Below the pieces are notes generated by a model. It ran no database searches and had not been told where the DNA came from. It saw only the letters and a program-made list of their open reading frames with translations. This document shows positions 1 to 23,860 of a DNA stretch of 64,000 bases, one piece after another. Numbering within the stretch: position 1 is the first letter of the stretch; every line of letters starts with the position of its first letter. The position numbers were made by a program, and so were the translations under genes. The DNA comes from Planctopirus ephydatiae (GTDB lineage Bacteria > Planctomycetota > Planctomycetia > Planctomycetales > Planctomycetaceae), in contig NZ_CP036299.1 of NCBI RefSeq assembly GCF_007752345.1, positions 4,374,001-4,438,000 on the forward strand. Reading direction: 5' to 3'.

Positions 1-846
1 GTCGATGGCAGTCTGCGTGTCACCGAACAGGGAGAAGTCCTCGCTGAGCGATATGACGAACCACAGATTGCCTTCCGCCATCTGGAACAGGTGACATGGG
101 CCACGCTGCTGGTGAGCAGCACACAAGAAGGGCATTGGCCGGAAGACTGGTTTACTCATCTCGACGAGTTGGCTCAGCAATCTTATCTGCATTACCGCAA
201 GCTGGTGGATGACCCTGGATTTTTGATGTATTTTGACCGGGCGACGCCGATCTCGGAAATCGAACGCTTGCCCATTGGTTCGCGACCAGCAAGACGACGC
301 GAACGGAAGAGTCTCTCGGATCTCCGGGCCATTCCCTGGACATTTGCCTGGACGCAGAGTCGGCACATGATTCCCGCCTGGTTCGGTTTAGGGAAAGCAC
401 TGCATGACGCCGTCGCTCGCAACAATGAAGACTGGTCACGTTATCAGGAAATGTATCGGACATGGCCGATCTTCCAGGCGATTATCGATAACGCGACGCT
501 GGCACTCATGAAGGCCGACTTGCAGATTGCCAATCGCTATGCCGACCTTGTCGAAGATCGGGAAGTCGCGAAGCGTTTGTGGTCCATGATTCATGAAGAG
601 TACGACCGCAGTCGGGCATCGGTGCTGATGATCACCGGCGAATCGTCGCTGCTCTCGAATACACCCTGGCTGCAGACATCAATTCAGGAGCGGAATCCCT
701 ATGTTGATCCGTTGAATCTGATTCAGGTCGAGCTTTTAAAGCGAGCCCGTGAAGGGAGCATTGAGGCCGATCGTGCAGCGAGATTACAACACTCGGTGCG
801 ACTGACAATTCAAGGAGTGGCAGCCGGTTTGAGAACAACGGGTTGA
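1..846 (+). CDS. ppc: Phosphoenolpyruvate carboxylase, C-terminal part (5' end outside window)
   Basis: The reading frame is open from base 1 and ends at TGA 844-846, so only the last 281 residues are present. The enzyme carboxylates PEP with bicarbonate to oxaloacetate, an anaplerotic reaction in the cytoplasm. The fragment shows family C-terminal hallmarks: a VTEQGE segment near the start, FAWTQSR followed by IPAWFGLG, RNPYVDPLN about 40 residues before the end, and a TIQGVAAGLR tail ending in Gly as is usual for PEPC. No internal break is visible. The next gene on this strand begins 284 bp later, beyond a repeat hairpin, so the two are probably separate transcripts. Confidence 0.95.
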   Translation, partial: VDGSLRVTEQGEVLAERYDEPQIAFRHLEQVTWATLLVSSTQEGHWPEDWFTHLDELAQQSYLHYRKLVDDPGFLMYFDRATPISEIERLPIGSRPARRRERKSLSDLRAIPWTFAWTQSRHMIPAWFGLGKALHDAVARNNEDWSRYQEMYRTWPIFQAIIDNATLALMKADLQIANRYADLVEDREVAKRLWSMIHEEYDRSRASVLMITGESSLLSNTPWLQTSIQERNPYVDPLNLIQVELLKRAREGSIEADRAARLQHSVRLTIQGVAAGLRTTG

Positions 847-15953: not shown

Positions 15954-17201
15954 CTAAAAACGCGTGACAGCGTAGGGTTTAGGATCGATGTGCGGCTTCT
16001 CACCAGTAATCATCTCGGCAATCAACTTGCCTGTGCTGGAAGCGAGGGAAATTCCGAGCATGCTGTGTCCTGTCGCAAGCCAGCCACCGCGCACCTTGGG
16101 GGTGGGCCCGATGATGGGAACACTGTCGTAAGTCATAGGTCGCCAGCCCCACCAGGGCTCTTCTTCCTGCTGGCCTACAGGATCTTTGAGATACAGCTTG
16201 GCTCCCTCTGTCAGGAGCTTGAGACGGCGGGGATTGATGGTGGTGTCGTAACCGGCGAATTCCATGGTCGAGCCGATCCGATACCCCGTTTGAAACGGCG
16301 TGATTGCGACACGGTGATCATGGAAGATCAACGGGACGCGCGGGCAGACGGCGGGCCTTTGCATGGTAATCGACAAGCCCTTCCCCGGCTGAACGGGGAT
16401 CGAGCACTTGAGTGCCTTCTGGAACATGGGCGAGAGGGCACCAGCGGCCAGGACGACATGTTTTGCCTCGATTTCCCCCTGGCTTGTTTTGACCGAACGA
16501 ACCTGCCCATTTTCCGTCACAATTTCTTCGACCTTGGTGCCTTCAAGTACGGAAACGCCTTGAGCCATCAGATTCAAACGCATCTGGCTCATGAGCCGCT
16601 CGGGATGCAGATGAGCATCGCATTCATAGAGGAAGGCCCCGGTGTTCCCCGGTTTGAGAGCGGGTTCAAATTCCATCAAAGCTTCATCGCCAATAATGCG
16701 GCGAGAAGGCCGATCAAATTTTTCGGCCAGCATATCATCCGTCTTGCAGAACGCCTCAAACTCAGAGGCTTTTCGATAGACGAAGAGAATCCCATCGTGC
16801 TGCCATTCGCACTCGATACCATCTTCCGCAAGGACCGTTTTGTATTCGTCGAACGAGGATCGCAGGATGGTGTTGAGTGCCACACCGGCGGCCATCATGT
16901 CTTTCTCATTGCAGCGGCGGGCAAAGTTGGTCAGCCAGCCGAGCAGAGCCAGGTCAAACCTGGGACGGATGTGGAATGGAGAATCGGGGGTCGTCATCGA
17001 CTTAAGTGTCTTCAGCAGAACACCGGGCTCTGCCAGGGGAAGAACATGGCTGGGACTGACATATCCGCAGTTCCCTTTGGAACAGAAGCCCCCAATGGTC
17101 CCTTGCTCGACAACTGTTACTGAAAGATTCTTTTTGGCGAGATAACGTGCGCACATGGCCCCGACAACGCCACCACCAACGACCACAACATCAACTGCCA
17201 C
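15954..17201 (-). CDS. FAD-dependent D-amino-acid oxidoreductase, probably cis-4-hydroxy-D-proline oxidase
   Basis: 415 aa, DadA/DAO family. The N-terminal Rossmann motif is VVVGGGVVGAMCARYL with a following acidic residue (VVEQG). The C-terminal signature reads WWGWRPMTYDSVPIIGPTPKVRGGWLATGHSMLGISLA. No membrane segment. In bacterial hydroxyproline catabolism such an enzyme oxidises cis-4-hydroxy-D-proline to pyrroline-4-hydroxy-2-carboxylate. That substrate is inferred from the neighbours: the epimerase that would make it and the DapA-family enzyme that would use its product lie directly upstream on the same strand. A general D-amino-acid dehydrogenase is the alternative. A 270-bp spacer separates it from the epimerase gene, so it may have its own promoter. 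Confidence 0.85.
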   Translation of the reverse strand: MAVDVVVVGGGVVGAMCARYLAKKNLSVTVVEQGTIGGFCSKGNCGYVSPSHVLPLAEPGVLLKTLKSMTTPDSPFHIRPRFDLALLGWLTNFARRCNEKDMMAAGVALNTILRSSFDEYKTVLAEDGIECEWQHDGILFVYRKASEFEAFCKTDDMLAEKFDRPSRRIIGDEALMEFEPALKPGNTGAFLYECDAHLHPERLMSQMRLNLMAQGVSVLEGTKVEEIVTENGQVRSVKTSQGEIEAKHVVLAAGALSPMFQKALKCSIPVQPGKGLSITMQRPAVCPRVPLIFHDHRVAITPFQTGYRIGSTMEFAGYDTTINPRRLKLLTEGAKLYLKDPVGQQEEEPWWGWRPMTYDSVPIIGPTPKVRGGWLATGHSMLGISLASSTGKLIAEMITGEKPHIDPKPYAVTRF

Positions 17202-17471
17202 GAAGTATCCCCTGATCTCGAAGTTGTTCTTGCGCTAACGAACTGCTGGTGTTCTCGAAAACATCCATGTCGCCAGATCCATCCAGGCCGGGGCGCGAGG
17301 CCAGAGTGAGGGCGATCAGCGATCTCTTTTGAACAAACACATCCCCTGGATGATAGCAAGGAAGCCCACATCTGGAGCATGACAAGAAATTCGGCTGAAA
17401 TAATCGAACTGACTTGCTGTACGTCAGTTACCAATTCTTGATACGTACCTCTCCAACCAGATTTGTGACAG

Positions 17472-18551
17472 TTATTGGGGCGGCAATATTCCCCAGCGGA
17501 ATGGATCCGCCTCATCGATCTGGAGCGTAGACACCCCTGTCACATAAGCCTCACCAGTCAACTGTGGCAGCACTTCCAAGCCCCTTTCGCCTTCTCGAAT
17601 CGCAAGGGCTTTGGCCTGAAAACAGCTTCCCACAATGCTTTTTTGTCGCCAGAGACCCCCTTCGGCCACTTTTCCATCGGCCACCAGACAAGCCAGTTTA
17701 GCACTGGTCCCTGTGCCGCAAGGTGAACGATCGTAGGCACCACCAGGGCAGAGCACAAAGTTCTGGCTGTCAGCAATACTCGAATCGCAACTGGCGAATA
17801 ATTCGACGTGGTCGATTTCGGCACCGTGTGCGCCTGTAATCCCCTGCTGCTCCAGTGAATTGCGAATCTGCGATGTATAGGCCAGCAAGTCTCGCAGATT
17901 CCCCAGATCGAGTGACTTCTGATGAACCTCTTCGCTAATCAGAAAGAACCAGTTGCCCCCCCAGGCAATATCGCCGGTGACGACTCCCAAGCCTGGTACA
18001 TCCAATGAGACAGCGTGTCGATATCGATAGCTCCAGACGTTTGTCAAAGTGACCGAGGCGCCACCACTCCATGTCGCTGCAATCGGTCCAACGGGCGTAT
18101 CGATTGTCAACGGGCCGGGAGCAATCAGGCCCATCTGTCCCAGTGAGACGACGACACCGATCATCCCGTGGCCACACATACCGAGATAGCCTGTGTTATT
18201 GCAGAAAACCACGCCCGCTTGAGACGAGGAATGCTCGAGAGGTGTCAAAATGGCACCGACGAGCACATCCGAGCCACGCGGTTCGAGCAGGCTGGCAGTT
18301 CTCAGCCAGTCGGCCTCCGTCTCCAGAAACTGCCGTCTTTCGGACATTGTTTTCGGCAGGATTAACGATGAACCATCGATCGCCTTTCGCAAACCGCTCA
18401 ATACCGATGGTGATGGCGACTCTTGAAAAGTTGACGCGTCTTCCTGGCTGCTTGCGAAGGGCCACGGCTGACCTGCATAGATCAGTCGTGTGGGTTCACC
18501 ACCCGTATGGCTATCGACAACCTGGATCCATTGCCTGGAAATGTACGTCAC
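17472..18551 (-). CDS. 4-hydroxyproline 2-epimerase (proline racemase superfamily)
   Basis: 359 aa. The two catalytic bases of the superfamily are both Cys: C126 in GMCGHGMIG and C278 in DRSPCGTGTSAKLA, the pair expected for proline racemases and 4-hydroxyproline epimerases, not the Ser/Thr variants that dehydrate. The N-terminus VVDSHTGGEPTRLI is typical. It converts trans-4-hydroxy-L-proline to cis-4-hydroxy-D-proline in the cytoplasm. It lies 13 bp downstream of the DapA-family gene, almost certainly in one transcript. Proline racemase is less likely given that context. Confidence 0.9.
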   Translation of the reverse strand: MTYISRQWIQVVDSHTGGEPTRLIYAGQPWPFASSQEDASTFQESPSPSVLSGLRKAIDGSSLILPKTMSERRQFLETEADWLRTASLLEPRGSDVLVGAILTPLEHSSSQAGVVFCNNTGYLGMCGHGMIGVVVSLGQMGLIAPGPLTIDTPVGPIAATWSGGASVTLTNVWSYRYRHAVSLDVPGLGVVTGDIAWGGNWFFLISEEVHQKSLDLGNLRDLLAYTSQIRNSLEQQGITGAHGAEIDHVELFASCDSSIADSQNFVLCPGGAYDRSPCGTGTSAKLACLVADGKVAEGGLWRQKSIVGSCFQAKALAIREGERGLEVLPQLTGEAYVTGVSTLQIDEADPFRWGILPPQ

Positions 18552-18564
18552 TTTGGATGCTCAC

Positions 18565-19479
18565 TCAATTCGCGGTGGAAGAAAGGAGAGCGTCCAACTG
18601 AGGGCGGTTGGCAATCGCATCGCGAATCAACTTCGTGATCCGTGTACGTTCTTCTCCCACCAGTGGCAAGCGAGGTGGTCGAGTCAGTTCGCTGCCATAT
18701 CCCACTTCAGCCATACAGAGCTTGATGTATTGAACAAGCTTGGTGTGAGTATCGAGGTGCAGCAGCGGCGTGTACCAGCGGTAGATATCGAGAGCTTCCT
18801 GCCAGCGACCAGCCGTCGCGAGTTCCCACAATGCACGGTTTTCAGCAGGGAAGGCGTTGACCAGGCCAGAAACCCAGCCTTCGGCCCCCAGCAGAATACT
18901 TTCGAGAGCCAGGTCGTCCACACCCGAAAGGAGCGTGTAGCGATTTCCCAGAAGATTGCGGATATCGGTGATCCTGCGGACGTTATCTGAAGATTCCTTG
19001 ACGGCGACGAACTTGGGTTCATCGGCCAGTTCCTGCAACATGGCAGGAGTCACATCGACCGTGTAGGCCACTGGATTATTGTAAATCATGATCGGGAGAG
19101 ACGAGGCCTTAGCCACTTCACGGAAGTGAGTCATGGCTTCGCGGGCATCGGCTTTATAGACCATACAAGGGAGCACCATCAGCCCGTTAGCACCCAGCTT
19201 TTCAGCATCGGCAGCGTAGCGGCAAGCCATGGCTGTGGTGTACTCGGCCACACCACTCAGAACCGGCACGCGTCCAGCCACATGCTCGACGACGCTCTTG
19301 AGCACTTCCCGCTTTTCATGCGGCTCAAGGGCAGTGTTTTCGCCAACACTTCCCAGCATGATCAAGCCATGCACACCTTCATCAATCAGCACATCAACAT
19401 GCTTGAGGGTGGCTTCGATATCGATGGAGAAGTCTGCATGAAACTGAGTCGTCACCGCAGGATACACGCCGTGCCACAT
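18565..19479 (-). CDS. DapA-family lyase/deaminase, probably pyrroline-4-hydroxy-2-carboxylate deaminase
   Basis: 304 aa from ATG 19479, chosen because family similarity starts at MWHGVYPAVTTQF; upstream in-frame codons add a non-homologous tail. Class I aldolase TIM barrel: the Schiff-base lysine is K161 (VAVKESS) and the catalytic Tyr is Y133 (MIYNNP). LGSVGENTAL replaces the usual GTTGE loop, pointing away from true dihydrodipicolinate synthase. Next to the hydroxyproline epimerase, the best guess is the enzyme that deaminates and dehydrates pyrroline-4-hydroxy-2-carboxylate to alpha-ketoglutarate semialdehyde. A sugar-acid aldolase or dehydratase remains possible. Confidence 0.85.
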   Translation of the reverse strand: MWHGVYPAVTTQFHADFSIDIEATLKHVDVLIDEGVHGLIMLGSVGENTALEPHEKREVLKSVVEHVAGRVPVLSGVAEYTTAMACRYAADAEKLGANGLMVLPCMVYKADAREAMTHFREVAKASSLPIMIYNNPVAYTVDVTPAMLQELADEPKFVAVKESSDNVRRITDIRNLLGNRYTLLSGVDDLALESILLGAEGWVSGLVNAFPAENRALWELATAGRWQEALDIYRWYTPLLHLDTHTKLVQYIKLCMAEVGYGSELTRPPRLPLVGEERTRITKLIRDAIANRPQLDALLSSTAN

Positions 19480-19608
19480 AACGAAACCTTGCCTTGGAGA
19501 TATTTTGATGTTGGGTGCAAAAATCAACTTCAGTAGCGTAAGCATCCTGAAAAGGGTTGTCAAACTGGAATTTTCAAAATCCGTGGTGTGAGCTTTTGGA
19601 AGCTGCGT

Positions 19609-20787
19609 TTAGAGAATCTGCCCCTCTTCAACACAGACCCGGCGAATGGCTGTTTCATCAACCGTGATCCCCAAGCCAGGACCATGGAGTCTGGGTGCCC
19701 AGCCGCCGCGTCCGAAGGTGAGGTCTTCTTTGGTCAGAGGTTCTTTGACGAGAAATCGATCAAAGCTCCCTTCATGATGCCGAATTCCTCCGACGGCCGT
19801 GGCGAACTGCCGGCCTGCAGCGGAAAGAATTCCTGTCTCACCCACCTGGCAACCCAACTGATAGCCGAGTCCATGTTTGCTCGCAAAAGCCGCCAATTCG
19901 AGTGAGGGCAAAAAGCCACCGCATTTGGAAAGCCGCAGGTTGAACAGATCACAGGTTCCATCATTGAAGGCACGCCGGGCATCTTCGAGGCTGCATACCG
20001 ATTCATCGAGCATTATGGGGACTGGAATGCGTCTTCTCAGATGGCTTAATGCCTGCACATGCTCATGAGCCACAGGTTGCTCGCACGACGTGATCCCTAA
20101 ATTGGACAATCGCTCCAGACGTTCTTCCAGCTGTTCAGGAAGCCATGCTTCATTGGCATCGATCCGTAAATCAAATGACGTACCTAACAGTCGACGAACC
20201 CATCTGGCCTGCTGAACATCATCACGGCCTGCAATGCCAACCTTCAGTTTGCCGGCAGCAAACTGGTAATACCGCAGTTTGGCACAACGAATCATCAATT
20301 TGGGAAGATTCATCGACGTGAAAACAGCACTGTACCGGATTCGCTCTGGGTGGATCTCAGGCTTAGGCAAGCCGTCGATTTTCGCCAGCTCGGCGATTCT
20401 CCAGAGAGGCTCGCCCGCATGTCGGAAGGCTGCATCGAGTAAGGCTATCTCGACCGCACAGCGAATCGAATTACCGAAACAGTGGCGGTCATCATCCGGG
20501 CGGCCAATCATCAGCGAGCGGCACAGCGCCATAGCTTCGGCCAGATCTTTCCAGCCACCACGCAATTGCCTCTCTACCTGGGCTTCGCGCAAAAGTGGCC
20601 CTAGATCGTCCACCGTCTCGCCGGTCACATACTTTCGAGGCAGGCCTTCCCCCCAACCGGTTTCGCCACTCTTCAACTGGCAACGAACAATGACAGACAA
20701 CGTTTCCGTCCGTGAATGCGAAGCGTGTGTGACCTTCCGCTTGAGGGGAATTCTCACAATCCAGGCATGCAGGCTGGCAATGGTCAT
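19609..20787 (-). CDS. Enolase-superfamily enzyme (muconate-lactonizing/dipeptide-epimerase subgroup)
   Basis: 392 aa from ATG 20787. A capping domain is followed by a TIM barrel with the superfamily ligands in order: KxK (GKLKVG), metal Asp in RIDANEAW, Glu in CEQPV, DES, and the second general base Lys in RLSKCGG. This two-lysine arrangement is that of the MLE subgroup (muconate cycloisomerase, dipeptide epimerases, N-acylamino-acid racemases, proline-betaine epimerases). Substrate cannot be read from the sequence. It is the first gene of the hydroxyproline-type cluster, 129 bp before the DapA-family gene, so a proline-derivative epimerase is an attractive but unproven idea. Confidence 0.82.
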   Translation of the reverse strand: MTIASLHAWIVRIPLKRKVTHASHSRTETLSVIVRCQLKSGETGWGEGLPRKYVTGETVDDLGPLLREAQVERQLRGGWKDLAEAMALCRSLMIGRPDDDRHCFGNSIRCAVEIALLDAAFRHAGEPLWRIAELAKIDGLPKPEIHPERIRYSAVFTSMNLPKLMIRCAKLRYYQFAAGKLKVGIAGRDDVQQARWVRRLLGTSFDLRIDANEAWLPEQLEERLERLSNLGITSCEQPVAHEHVQALSHLRRRIPVPIMLDESVCSLEDARRAFNDGTCDLFNLRLSKCGGFLPSLELAAFASKHGLGYQLGCQVGETGILSAAGRQFATAVGGIRHHEGSFDRFLVKEPLTKEDLTFGRGGWAPRLHGPGLGITVDETAIRRVCVEEGQIL

Positions 20788-20891
20788 GCGTGACAATTCA
20801 TAAAGTTCATTGATCCGAGTAAAGACAGCAAGAATTCAATCAAACTGTCGATTCAGTTGGCATGCTGAGTGTCGCTTAAAGCATCAGCGGG

Positions 20892-20917
20892 CATGCTTGC
20901 TCAGAGCCGCAAGCATG
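20892..20917. repeat. CATGCTTGC hairpin, REP-like (family A, good copy)
   Basis: CATGCTTGC at 20892-20900 and its exact complement GCAAGCATG at 20909-20917 enclose an 8-base loop (TCAGAGCC). In reverse orientation this matches the copy at 44800-44825 over about 31 bases with one mismatch. It lies in the spacer between the carbonic anhydrase stop and the enolase-superfamily gene. Confidence 0.8.
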
Positions 20918-20964
20918 GCACGAAGCTGAACCTCAGGAAGCGACCATGTGCGATGGCTGAACCA

Positions 20965-21900
20965 CTACAGCTTCATCGTCAAGCGGCAGCTATCACGCTC
21001 TTCATCCGGCAAACTGAACAGCGCCTCGACCACTTCACTCGAATACTGAGACAGCTCTTCGGGAGATGTCGGGGCATCGCGCAACTGAGGCGCTGCCCCC
21101 GATTCAAGTGGCAAAGCCTGGACACGCAGCGAATCGAAATCGTAAATGCCAAACTTGACCTGTGGCGGATTCTTGACTCGCAGTTTGAGTTCTCTCTGGA
21201 GTTCAAGAGCTGTGATGGAACTGTTGATGTAGGACGTCACTGCGACCAGAAAGGATCGATGCAGTTCCGGGTTGTGCTGGAAGATCGGCGAATACTGATC
21301 GAGGGCGCGAGCCGCACCACGGACAGCAATCTGAATCTGATCGACCAGTGTTCGTAATGGGAACGTGTAGGCAATATCGGCATACCCTTCTGGTGAAAGA
21401 TACGTATCGACCGCAGCCGTGACGGCTCCACATTTGGAATGCCCCATGACGACAACCACCTTCAGGCTTTCGCCGAGGGCTTTCACCGCATAATGCAAAG
21501 ACCCCAGACATTCAGACCCCAGGACGTTCCCGGCAATACGGAGAACAAATAGATCATTGAAAGACTGATCAAAAATCTGTTCTGTCGGCACGCGGGCATC
21601 TGAACAACCGAGTACCACAGCGAATGGAGCCTGAGTCAACACGGCCCCTTCGAACAAGGGCAAACCCATCGCCACAGGGCTGATGGGCATGACGATAGGA
21701 TCTTTAAGGGACGGATCCAGTGTGTGCTTCTGCATCTGCCGCACAAATTGTATGAACCGTGAATTCCCTTCGAGCAGATGATTGACCGCAGCTTCGGTGG
21801 TAGGAATCTGCCGTGGAGTGACAGGTGCATATGGGTCATACCGGTAAATCAAATCCATTTTCAAAACTTTCTTGGGAGACGATGAATGACATCCCTGCAT
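20965..21900 (-). CDS. Beta-class carbonic anhydrase
   Basis: 311 aa. Zinc ligands and catalytic pair are visible: C99-S-D101-A-R103 and H154-S-K-C157-G. It interconverts CO2 and bicarbonate. About 80 residues precede the core and a tail of about 60 follows it, so it is longer than the minimal 200-aa enzyme. No signal peptide is seen, so it should be cytoplasmic. The start at 21900 is favoured because its ATG shares a base with the TAA of the bestrophin gene (TAATG), a coupling junction; ATG 21858 is an alternative. The pairing with a bestrophin channel suggests bicarbonate handling. Confidence 0.93.
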   Translation of the reverse strand: MQGCHSSSPKKVLKMDLIYRYDPYAPVTPRQIPTTEAAVNHLLEGNSRFIQFVRQMQKHTLDPSLKDPIVMPISPVAMGLPLFEGAVLTQAPFAVVLGCSDARVPTEQIFDQSFNDLFVLRIAGNVLGSECLGSLHYAVKALGESLKVVVVMGHSKCGAVTAAVDTYLSPEGYADIAYTFPLRTLVDQIQIAVRGAARALDQYSPIFQHNPELHRSFLVAVTSYINSSITALELQRELKLRVKNPPQVKFGIYDFDSLRVQALPLESGAAPQLRDAPTSPEELSQYSSEVVEALFSLPDEERDSCRLTMKL

Positions 21901-22811
21901 TAATCGCGCTGATCGTCACATATAAAGGCGGGTTTGAACAGTGCCAACTGACCGGCATCACGAGCAATGGTTAATGTCAACGCTTCGAGATCGAGGCAAT
22001 TGCCATCGGAACCAAAGGGGTCTTCAATTTCAACGCTGGCTTCCTCCATACCCAGAAGTGCCAGCGAAACAACAAACATTAACACAGGAGACCACCAGCC
22101 ACAGCGTTCGCATAAGACAAGAGGCAACGTGATCAAGTAGGCGAGAATCAGTTGCTTGATCATCGCCACATAGATGAATGGCAAAGGTGTTTTCTGGATT
22201 TTCTCACACCCACCCTGAGCATCGACCATTTTGCAAAGCTGGTCTTCCATCTGACGAACCTGCATCGAATCGAGCTTCCCTTTCCGATACTGCTCGCCAA
22301 TCCAGTGACTGATGGCCGATGTGACCCCAGTGGGAATGTTTCCAAATCGAGAGACCTGCTCGCAAAGTTCCGCGGGCAGATAGACATCGACTTCCTCGGT
22401 ATCGCGCTGACCATGCAGTGACCGCCTCAGTGAGATCACATACCCGGCGACTAACCTCGAAAGGGTTGAACCGCGGTCACCATACTCACAACCAAAACGC
22501 ACGAGATTTCGCGAACTGTTGATCAACTGACCCCAATGAGACCGCCCTTCCCAATAACGGTTATTGGAAGAGTTCATGCGGAAGACAATCAGGAATCCCA
22601 GGAGCGAACCGACCACGGCATGCCCCACAGGATCGATCCCTAAGAACCGCTGCTCATCAAATAATTCCAGCCCACTCCCCAGTTCAAAAGTGGCCTGCAC
22701 CAGCAAGGCATAAATCACACAGGTGAGGACACGCCAGCCAGCTCGGGGCAAGGCCGTTCCGCGAAATGAAAATGCCGTCTTCCACCAGCTATAACGGTTG
22801 TATTCAATCAT
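21900..22811 (-). CDS. Bestrophin-family (UPF0187/RFP-TM) anion channel
   Basis: 303 aa. The sequence has the bacterial bestrophin layout: WWKTAFSFRG near the N-terminus, a first membrane helix (VLTCVIYALLVQATFEL), then GSLLGFLIVFRMNSSNNRYWEGRSHWG, the family signature, and two more hydrophobic segments around residues 205-245. The C-terminus has EDPFGSDGNCLDLEAL, the typical ending. Family members are pentameric channels passing chloride or bicarbonate. It overlaps the carbonic anhydrase start by one base, so the two are made together. Its spacer to the divergent SDR gene (281 bp) holds nothing I recognise beyond room for promoters. Confidence 0.9.
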   Translation of the reverse strand: MIEYNRYSWWKTAFSFRGTALPRAGWRVLTCVIYALLVQATFELGSGLELFDEQRFLGIDPVGHAVVGSLLGFLIVFRMNSSNNRYWEGRSHWGQLINSSRNLVRFGCEYGDRGSTLSRLVAGYVISLRRSLHGQRDTEEVDVYLPAELCEQVSRFGNIPTGVTSAISHWIGEQYRKGKLDSMQVRQMEDQLCKMVDAQGGCEKIQKTPLPFIYVAMIKQLILAYLITLPLVLCERCGWWSPVLMFVVSLALLGMEEASVEIEDPFGSDGNCLDLEALTLTIARDAGQLALFKPAFICDDQRD

Positions 22812-23092
22812 GAAGGAGTTTTGCTCCAGGACTTCAGGTCACTCAGATGCCGCTGAGCGGTTTACTTCGAATTTATTCAGAGCATATCGGCGATGAGGCT
22901 CGTTCTCGCCAGCAAGCCTTGAGCCAGCAATCAAGATGGAAGTAACCACATGCAGACATCCACTCGAAACGAGCCATCCATTTCAGAAAAGGTGTAGCCA
23001 AATTGTGGCGAACGGGATAGTCCTTCTCTGTTGTCATTTCGAGACTTGATACGGCAAGCGACAACCCATTGATTGAGATCAGGAAGATTCCC

Positions 23093-23860
23093 ATGCGATT
23101 TCAGAATCGTGTTGTTTTGATCACTGGCAGTGCGGCTGGGATTGGTGCCGGCTGTGCCCAGGTGTTTCTGGACGAAGGAGCGAGAGTCATCTCGTTGGAT
23201 CGCGATCAGACTGCACTGGAGAAATGGCTCGAAAGCCTGGTTCCTGCACAACGCGAGCAAGTGTGGCCAATTGTCTGTGATGTGGCCAATACAGCCCAAC
23301 TGCAGAATGCAATCCAGTCGGGTATCCAAAGTTTTGGTCGCCTGGATTGCCTGATCAACAATGCAGGGATCCATCCTCCCGCTTTAACGATTGCCGAAAC
23401 CTCTCTGGAACTGGTCGAGCAGGTGATGCGAGTCAACTTCATCGCCACATTTGCAGCCAGTCAGGCAGTCGTTGAGGAACTCAAAAAGACTCGGGGAACA
23501 ATCATCAACATCTCATCGATGACAGCAGTCCTTGGACAGGAAAACTCAACCGCTTATGCGGCATCGAAGGGTGCCCAGGTGAGCTTCACCAAATCTCTGG
23601 CCCTGGAACTGGCACGCTATGGAGTGCGGGTGAATGCGATCCTTCCCAGTAATGTCGATACACCACTGATGAGAACATGGGCCGCCTCTCTTCCCGATCC
23701 GGAAGCGGCTCTTGATCGAGTGGCCCGCCTACAACCTTTGGGACGAATGGCCACTCCGGATGAAATCGGAAAAATCGCTCTCTTTCTTGCGACTGAGGAC
23801 TCCAGCTTTCTCACTGGACAAGCCATTGAAGCCGATGGCGGAGCTGCGCTGGATTATTAG
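23093..23860 (+). CDS. Short-chain dehydrogenase/reductase
   Basis: 255 aa, classical SDR. Start ATG 23093 has AGGAAG upstream and directly precedes the first strand (RFQNRVVLITGSAAGIGAG). Cofactor motif GSAAGIG, then NNAG, catalytic Ser in NISSMTAV, and YAASK carrying Tyr and Lys. The acidic residue after strand 2 (SLDRD) favours NAD(H). The C-terminus (FLTGQAIEADGGAAL) is typical. Substrate is unknown. Neighbours on both sides run the other way, so it is probably monocistronic. Confidence 0.9.
   Translation: MRFQNRVVLITGSAAGIGAGCAQVFLDEGARVISLDRDQTALEKWLESLVPAQREQVWPIVCDVANTAQLQNAIQSGIQSFGRLDCLINNAGIHPPALTIAETSLELVEQVMRVNFIATFAASQAVVEELKKTRGTIINISSMTAVLGQENSTAYAASKGAQVSFTKSLALELARYGVRVNAILPSNVDTPLMRTWAASLPDPEAALDRVARLQPLGRMATPDEIGKIALFLATEDSSFLTGQAIEADGGAALDY

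Follow-up and report, generated by a model that had tools for sequence, protein, structure and literature searches.

A bestrophin-type channel gene paired with a beta-carbonic anhydrase gene in Planctopirus ephydatiae and related planctomycetes

In the window analysed here, a stretch of 64,000 nucleotides from Planctopirus ephydatiae, the minus strand carries a bestrophin gene and, directly after it, a beta-carbonic anhydrase (CA) gene. We tentatively propose that the pair is a two-gene operon encoding a bestrophin channel of the inner membrane and a beta-CA of the cytosol, the two acting as one CO2/bicarbonate-handling unit. The physiological roles of bestrophins have been described as unknown, and the bacterial proteins as Na+ channels (PMC4893618, partial text). 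A recurrent beta-CA partnership is a rare clue to bacterial bestrophin function, and the role it suggests is directly testable.

The two genes and their products

The adjacency claimed in the earlier note holds, with both families recognised by profile, the genes on one strand and the bestrophin first. The bestrophin gene (21900..22811, minus strand) encodes 303 aa, and Pfam PF25539 (Bestrophin_2) covers the protein over profile positions 1-285 of 288 with an E value of 7.3e-66. The profile PF01062 (Bestrophin) gave no match in the window's own genome, and PF25539 is the right model. An AlphaFold2 model of the subunit, built on 52 aligned sequences, reached a mean pLDDT of 90.5 and a pTM of 0.85. 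Its top PDB matches were chains of KpBest, and TM scores of ~0.81 (query) and 0.91 (target) to 4wd7_A indicate a KpBest-type fold, at 22-23% identity in the structural alignment. The window's genome holds a second bestrophin (G000:C1:3544481-3545323; L004/L285), the 5 kb flank of which contains no beta-CA.

The CA reading frame opens at 21900 and stops at 20965 on the minus strand. Its match to PF00484 (Pro_CA), with an E value of 7.1e-24, is above the cut-off and spans profile positions 1-74 of 156 only; likeness to solved beta-CAs is likewise limited to the active-site half, and a model from the single sequence had a mean pLDDT of 35.8. The active-site residues C85, D87, R89, H140 and C143 (codons within 21430..21606, minus strand) show no variation among the 22 aligned orthologues. 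We take C85, H140 and C143 to be the zinc ligands (Cys-His-Cys) and D87-R89 to be the Asp-Arg pair of beta-CAs. A hydrophobic N-terminal leader is absent from either of the two possible starts, and the enzyme is therefore predicted to be cytosolic.

Start of the carbonic anhydrase gene

The bestrophin stop codon (21902-21900, minus strand) and an ATG share a base in the letters TAATG, and on this ground the earlier note called the two genes translationally coupled. These letters are indeed present, but this ATG does not appear to be the anhydrase start, as all 22 aligned orthologues begin at the motif MD[VLI]IYRYDP (with TTG in L057), which corresponds to residue 15 of the window frame. The upstream ATG and an open 14-codon leader are common to the window and two close relatives, G033 and G095. 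In G074, the fourth genus member, whose two proteins are 84-88% identical to those of the window, the upstream start is missing and a TGA lies in the leader stretch. Because the orthologues agree and G074 lacks the upstream ATG, the gene most likely starts at 21858, ~41 nt past the bestrophin stop, and encodes a long beta-CA of 297 aa (20965..21858, minus strand). The 42-nt stretch at 21859..21900 (minus strand) is then probably a non-coding spacer and the TAATG overlap probably accidental; on the orthologue starts and the G074 TGA we rejected the start/stop overlap as a coupling device for the window's pair.

In the eight adjacent long-CA loci other than those of G000, G033 and G095, 9 to 77 nt separate the bestrophin from the CA core start. 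Such spacing fits an operon, and translational coupling does not follow from it. By eye, no clear Shine-Dalgarno sequence precedes either CA ATG, and no sigma-70 promoter-like site was found in window positions 20700-23200. The f101 loci L334, L337 and L340 show a 4-nt overlap between the CA stop and a possible bestrophin start; the starts there are guessed GTG codons, and translational coupling is possible. Of CA residues 1-12 of the window protein (21823-21858, minus strand), the 22 orthologues share nine or ten without exception (M1, D2, I4-P9, P12), and this stretch falls outside the catalytic domain.

Recurrence of the pair

A pair was scored where a same-strand beta-CA lies within 400 nt of a bestrophin. 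The pair was found in 4/4 searched members of the window's genus and also in four other genera of its family, making 11 genomes from five genera in total (G000, G033, G074, G095, G024, G025, G046, G058, G079, G099 and G110), so the arrangement is not limited to this strain. Among 132 distinct bestrophins sampled in the window's class, 21 have a same-strand beta-CA within this distance. Relatives of the window protein are over-represented in this sample and some contigs stop close to the gene, so the fraction is not a class rate. It exceeds the ~0.2% expected by chance on rough figures of 5 CA genes among 4200. The long CA lies downstream in 11 of the 21 pairs and other beta-CAs lie upstream in the remaining 10, one of these upstream partners being a SulP-CA fusion (L246).

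We placed CA pairing on a FastTree tree of 146 rows, made up of 130 class bestrophins and 16 of 80 loci from named genomes; the two other bestrophins of the 132, with matched cores shorter than 200 residues, were left off. The trait changes at least 12 times, with 10 of the changes forced by well-supported branches, and it turns up in five or more separate regions of the tree, with various beta-CA types and with either gene first; the changes may be gains or losses, and long branches leave some placements unsure. On this evidence bestrophin/beta-CA pairs arose repeatedly in the window's class. That adjacency recurs across genera and across bestrophin branches supports the functional link between the two genes that the earlier note had proposed.

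A scan of named genomes, queried with an alignment of 18 bestrophins, kept 80 loci. Most are titled Proteobacteria, Myxococcota or Bacteroidota, and two carry the titles Pirellulaceae and Alienimonas; the loci lean towards relatives of the L012 bestrophin, which is the first row of the alignment. With flanks of up to 5 kb, nearly full at 62 loci and cut at 18, a beta-CA was present at 0/80 of them by the same profile and by the pattern C.D.R...H..C. On this biased set, adjacency is not supported as a rule for bacteria in general. Plasmid bestrophins reached ~30% identity at best.

Several loci have arrangements of their own. In G070 (L246, 2680-7028) a beta-CA, the SulP-CA fusion and a bestrophin stand in a row on one strand, an inorganic-carbon cluster, and in G036 (L253, 894-3636, minus strand) a beta-CA is followed by two tandem bestrophins. 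The f101 loci with a CA on the other strand, 1.6-3.1 kb off and with a kinase-like ORF between, were not scored as pairs. At L136, L137, L142, L144, L145, L155 and similar f101 loci, an ORF that looks by eye like a Ser/Thr kinase or zinc-finger protein lies upstream of the bestrophin, and beyond it are a divergent beta-CA and an arginine-decarboxylase-like gene.

Co-occurrence with the long carbonic anhydrase

The bestrophin clade of the window protein (at least 50% identical to it) is present in 34/170 genomes of the family, and the long CA in 35/150 (at least 49% identical, one of them split, E up to 1e-50). The long CA was found in 93/397 genomes of a draw from the class at E 1e-40 and in 8/392 genomes of a phylum-wide draw at E 1e-30; the co-occurrence count rests on the class draw and not on the phylum-wide one. 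Within the family, the long CA is carried by 25 of the 31 genomes with the bestrophin clade compared with 10 of the 119 without it, or by 10/11 clade genera compared with 6/47 others when counted by genus. The corresponding figures for the class are 30/37 and 63/360, and the Fisher p-values on these comparisons ignore kinship and should not be used at face value. Outside the window's family, nine of the ten clade genomes carry the long CA. The clade bestrophins found without it in the class draw belong to six g53 genomes and to G718; among the g53 genomes, another beta-CA adjoins the clade bestrophin in G112 and lies 0.9 kb from it on the opposite strand in G081.

Seen from the enzyme, a same-strand bestrophin lies within 400 nt of the long CA in 16 of 54 distinct sequences and at 11 of 60 further loci. 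One of these 11, L353, was scored via an over-long ORF, its bestrophin core lying ~0.3 kb past the CA stop. At two more of the further 60 loci the bestrophin stands slightly beyond the limit, 411 and 543 nt away. In families other than that of the window, the long CA has another bestrophin beside it, with 24-30% identity to the window's protein. The bestrophin precedes the long CA in f2 and follows it in f101, and none of the f5 long-CA loci examined has a bestrophin pair.

Neck residues and predicted ion selectivity

The earlier note had taken it as a rule that bestrophins conduct chloride and bicarbonate, and this does not hold for the bacterial KpBest, a Na+ channel with neck residues I62, I66 and F70 (PMC8496536, partial text). 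KpBest (Klebsiella pneumoniae, PDB 4wd7 and mutants) shares fold and length with the window bestrophin, but the two differ at the neck, which is I-I-F in the Na+-selective KpBest and S-F-F in the window protein. An ungapped alignment with KpBest places the predicted neck of the window protein at S69, F73 and F77 (codons within 22581..22607, minus strand), two of the three positions being hydrophobic and the first a Ser. Ser-Phe occupies the first two positions in 44/44 members of the window's bestrophin clade, and the full SFF neck is found in 39 of them. The middle Phe, present in 44/44 clade members, occurs in only 2 of the 102 other alignment rows.

Mutation I66F is reported to turn KpBest to favouring Cl-, and most bestrophins studied are described as Cl- channels (PMC8496536, partial text). 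Because the middle neck Phe of the window's clade equals the I66F change, anion permeability is plausible for this clade, and anion selectivity would be a fair prediction under a neck rule that is based on KpBest and human Best1 mutants. The rule fails for most other CA-linked bestrophins. Where another beta-CA stands upstream, the middle residue is Ile or Leu in 9/10 cases, and the long-CA partners in f101 mostly have Val, Ile, Thr or Leu. We therefore make no claim of common HCO3- permeability for all pairs. An aromatic middle neck residue was also considered as a marker of long-CA partners, since it was present at 16/17 of the first loci (11 Phe, 5 Trp); it failed on the wider set, where most f101 partners are non-aromatic, and holds for the window's clade only.

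Direction of flow and alternative readings

In the reading that we tentatively prefer, the channel would be a pentamer permeable to HCO3- and Cl-, as the middle neck Phe suggests, and the CA would work at its cytosolic mouth. The net direction would be hydration of CO2 to HCO3- and H+, with HCO3- leaving down the membrane potential. The outcome would be disposal of CO2 with protons kept inside, which would serve pH homeostasis, above all in alkaline water. At -120 mV a passive monovalent anion has a computed equilibrium ratio inside:outside of 0.009, or ~1:100, so that an energised cell would lose bicarbonate through such a channel, except where the channel is gated or external HCO3- is very high. 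With the CA predicted in the cytosol, and since passive anion flow drains HCO3- from an inside-negative cell, CO2 hydration with HCO3- exit seems likelier than uptake for carboxylases. If HCO3- does leave via the channel, the pair would be a CO2-disposal/pH device and not a carbon-concentrating one.

A more specific proposal, which we consider doubtful, is that the bestrophin and the long beta-CA make up a physical channel-enzyme unit, in which the CA N-terminus (MD.IYRYDP..P) docks and the membrane potential pulls HCO3- out as it is made. If true, this unit would be a vectorial CO2-hydration/CO2-disposal device and would give a physiological role to a large group of bacterial bestrophins.

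Bicarbonate import, the direction favoured in the earlier note, would have the channel admit HCO3- and the cytosolic CA balance it with CO2 for carboxylases. Algal and diatom bestrophins have been proposed as HCO3- suppliers to a CA (PMC6708349, PMC11142338, partial texts), and the related sulP/can2 pairs have been interpreted as serving uptake or efflux (PMC6458275, partial text). We nevertheless judge import unlikely, given that an inside-negative cell with a passive path for anions tends to lose them and that the CA, which has no hydrophobic N-terminus, is on the wrong side for an analogy with algal BST and CAH3. Nor is any carboxylase linked to the pair among the window neighbours. The PEP carboxylase gene that the earlier note suggested might be fed in this way (91..846, plus strand, C-terminal part only in the window) lies ~20 kb from the pair, with genes judged by eye to be of flagellar type between, and shows no link to it.

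A chloride or general anion leak, controlling osmotic state or membrane potential and tied to the CA through pH regulation only, would accord with the Cl- channels that make up most of the studied bestrophins (PMC8496536, partial text). We regard it as improbable, since the partner is repeatedly a CA specifically. The bestrophin could also be a cation channel that passes Na+, as KpBest does (PMC8496536, partial text), with the CA giving H+ and HCO3- for pH/Na+ balance by another route. The non-aromatic middle neck of most other CA-linked bestrophins is in keeping with this, but the window's clade has the middle Phe, like eukaryotic anion channels, and a Na+ channel is quite improbable here. 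Neutral adjacency, with the genes neighbours through chance and descent, might account for a bestrophin-then-CA order found with the window clade in one sampled family and for genes that lie apart in many genomes, but is very improbable in view of repeated pairing on separate bestrophin branches, with different CA types and both orders, and of co-occurrence that extends beyond adjacent genes.

Comparison with known systems

In 2004 Felce and Saier reportedly described SulP anion transporters paired with or fused to beta-CAs. The window pair would resemble such SulP-CA pairs in that a membrane anion path (anion transport by the bestrophin being predicted) is clustered with a cytosolic beta-CA, and a fusion of that kind is also present in the window's class (L246). 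The difference lies in the membrane partner, which is a carrier there and here a bestrophin (PF25539), a passive path; with this partner the pair would work like a SulP-CA pair without being a member of that group. The single SulP match of the window genome lies elsewhere, at C1:500384. Gene clusters that join a CA with a SulP transporter, as neighbours or as a fusion, are well established (can2-sulP), with fusions and conserved microsynteny reported (PMC6458275, partial text).

The pair may also have a eukaryotic counterpart, and could be viewed as a bacterial equivalent of the bestrophin-CA system of algae. For Chlamydomonas it is proposed that BST1-3 let HCO3- enter the lumen for dehydration by CAH3, and an interaction of the LCIB/LCIC complex with bestrophin-like proteins has been reported (PMC6708349, partial text); according to a 2023 review, HCO3- transport by BST1-3 awaits confirmation (PMC10096703, partial text). 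Both systems partner a bestrophin-type protein with a carbonic anhydrase, but the algal one is thylakoid and photosynthetic, with CAH3 of alpha type on the lumen side (PMC6708349, partial text), whereas the window pair has a cytosolic beta-CA in a bacterial operon. As the bacterial cytosol corresponds to the stroma and the outside to the lumen, the fitting analogue is the stromal beta-CA-like LCIB/LCIC and not the lumenal CAH3. By this stromal analogy the CA would make HCO3- and the bestrophin would pass it to the positive side. In the literature searched, a coverage that excludes most subscription journals, we came across no account of bacteria whose bestrophin and CA genes are paired.

Genes downstream of the pair

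Beyond the CA, the minus strand continues with genes of MR/MLE enolase, DHDPS, proline racemase and DAO-type oxidase types (15954-20796), which look like a hydroxyproline or imino-acid catabolic cluster. The first of them begins 168 nt past the CA stop. The gene that follows the CA is of MR/MLE type in the window, in G033 and in G095, and DHDPS-like in G074.
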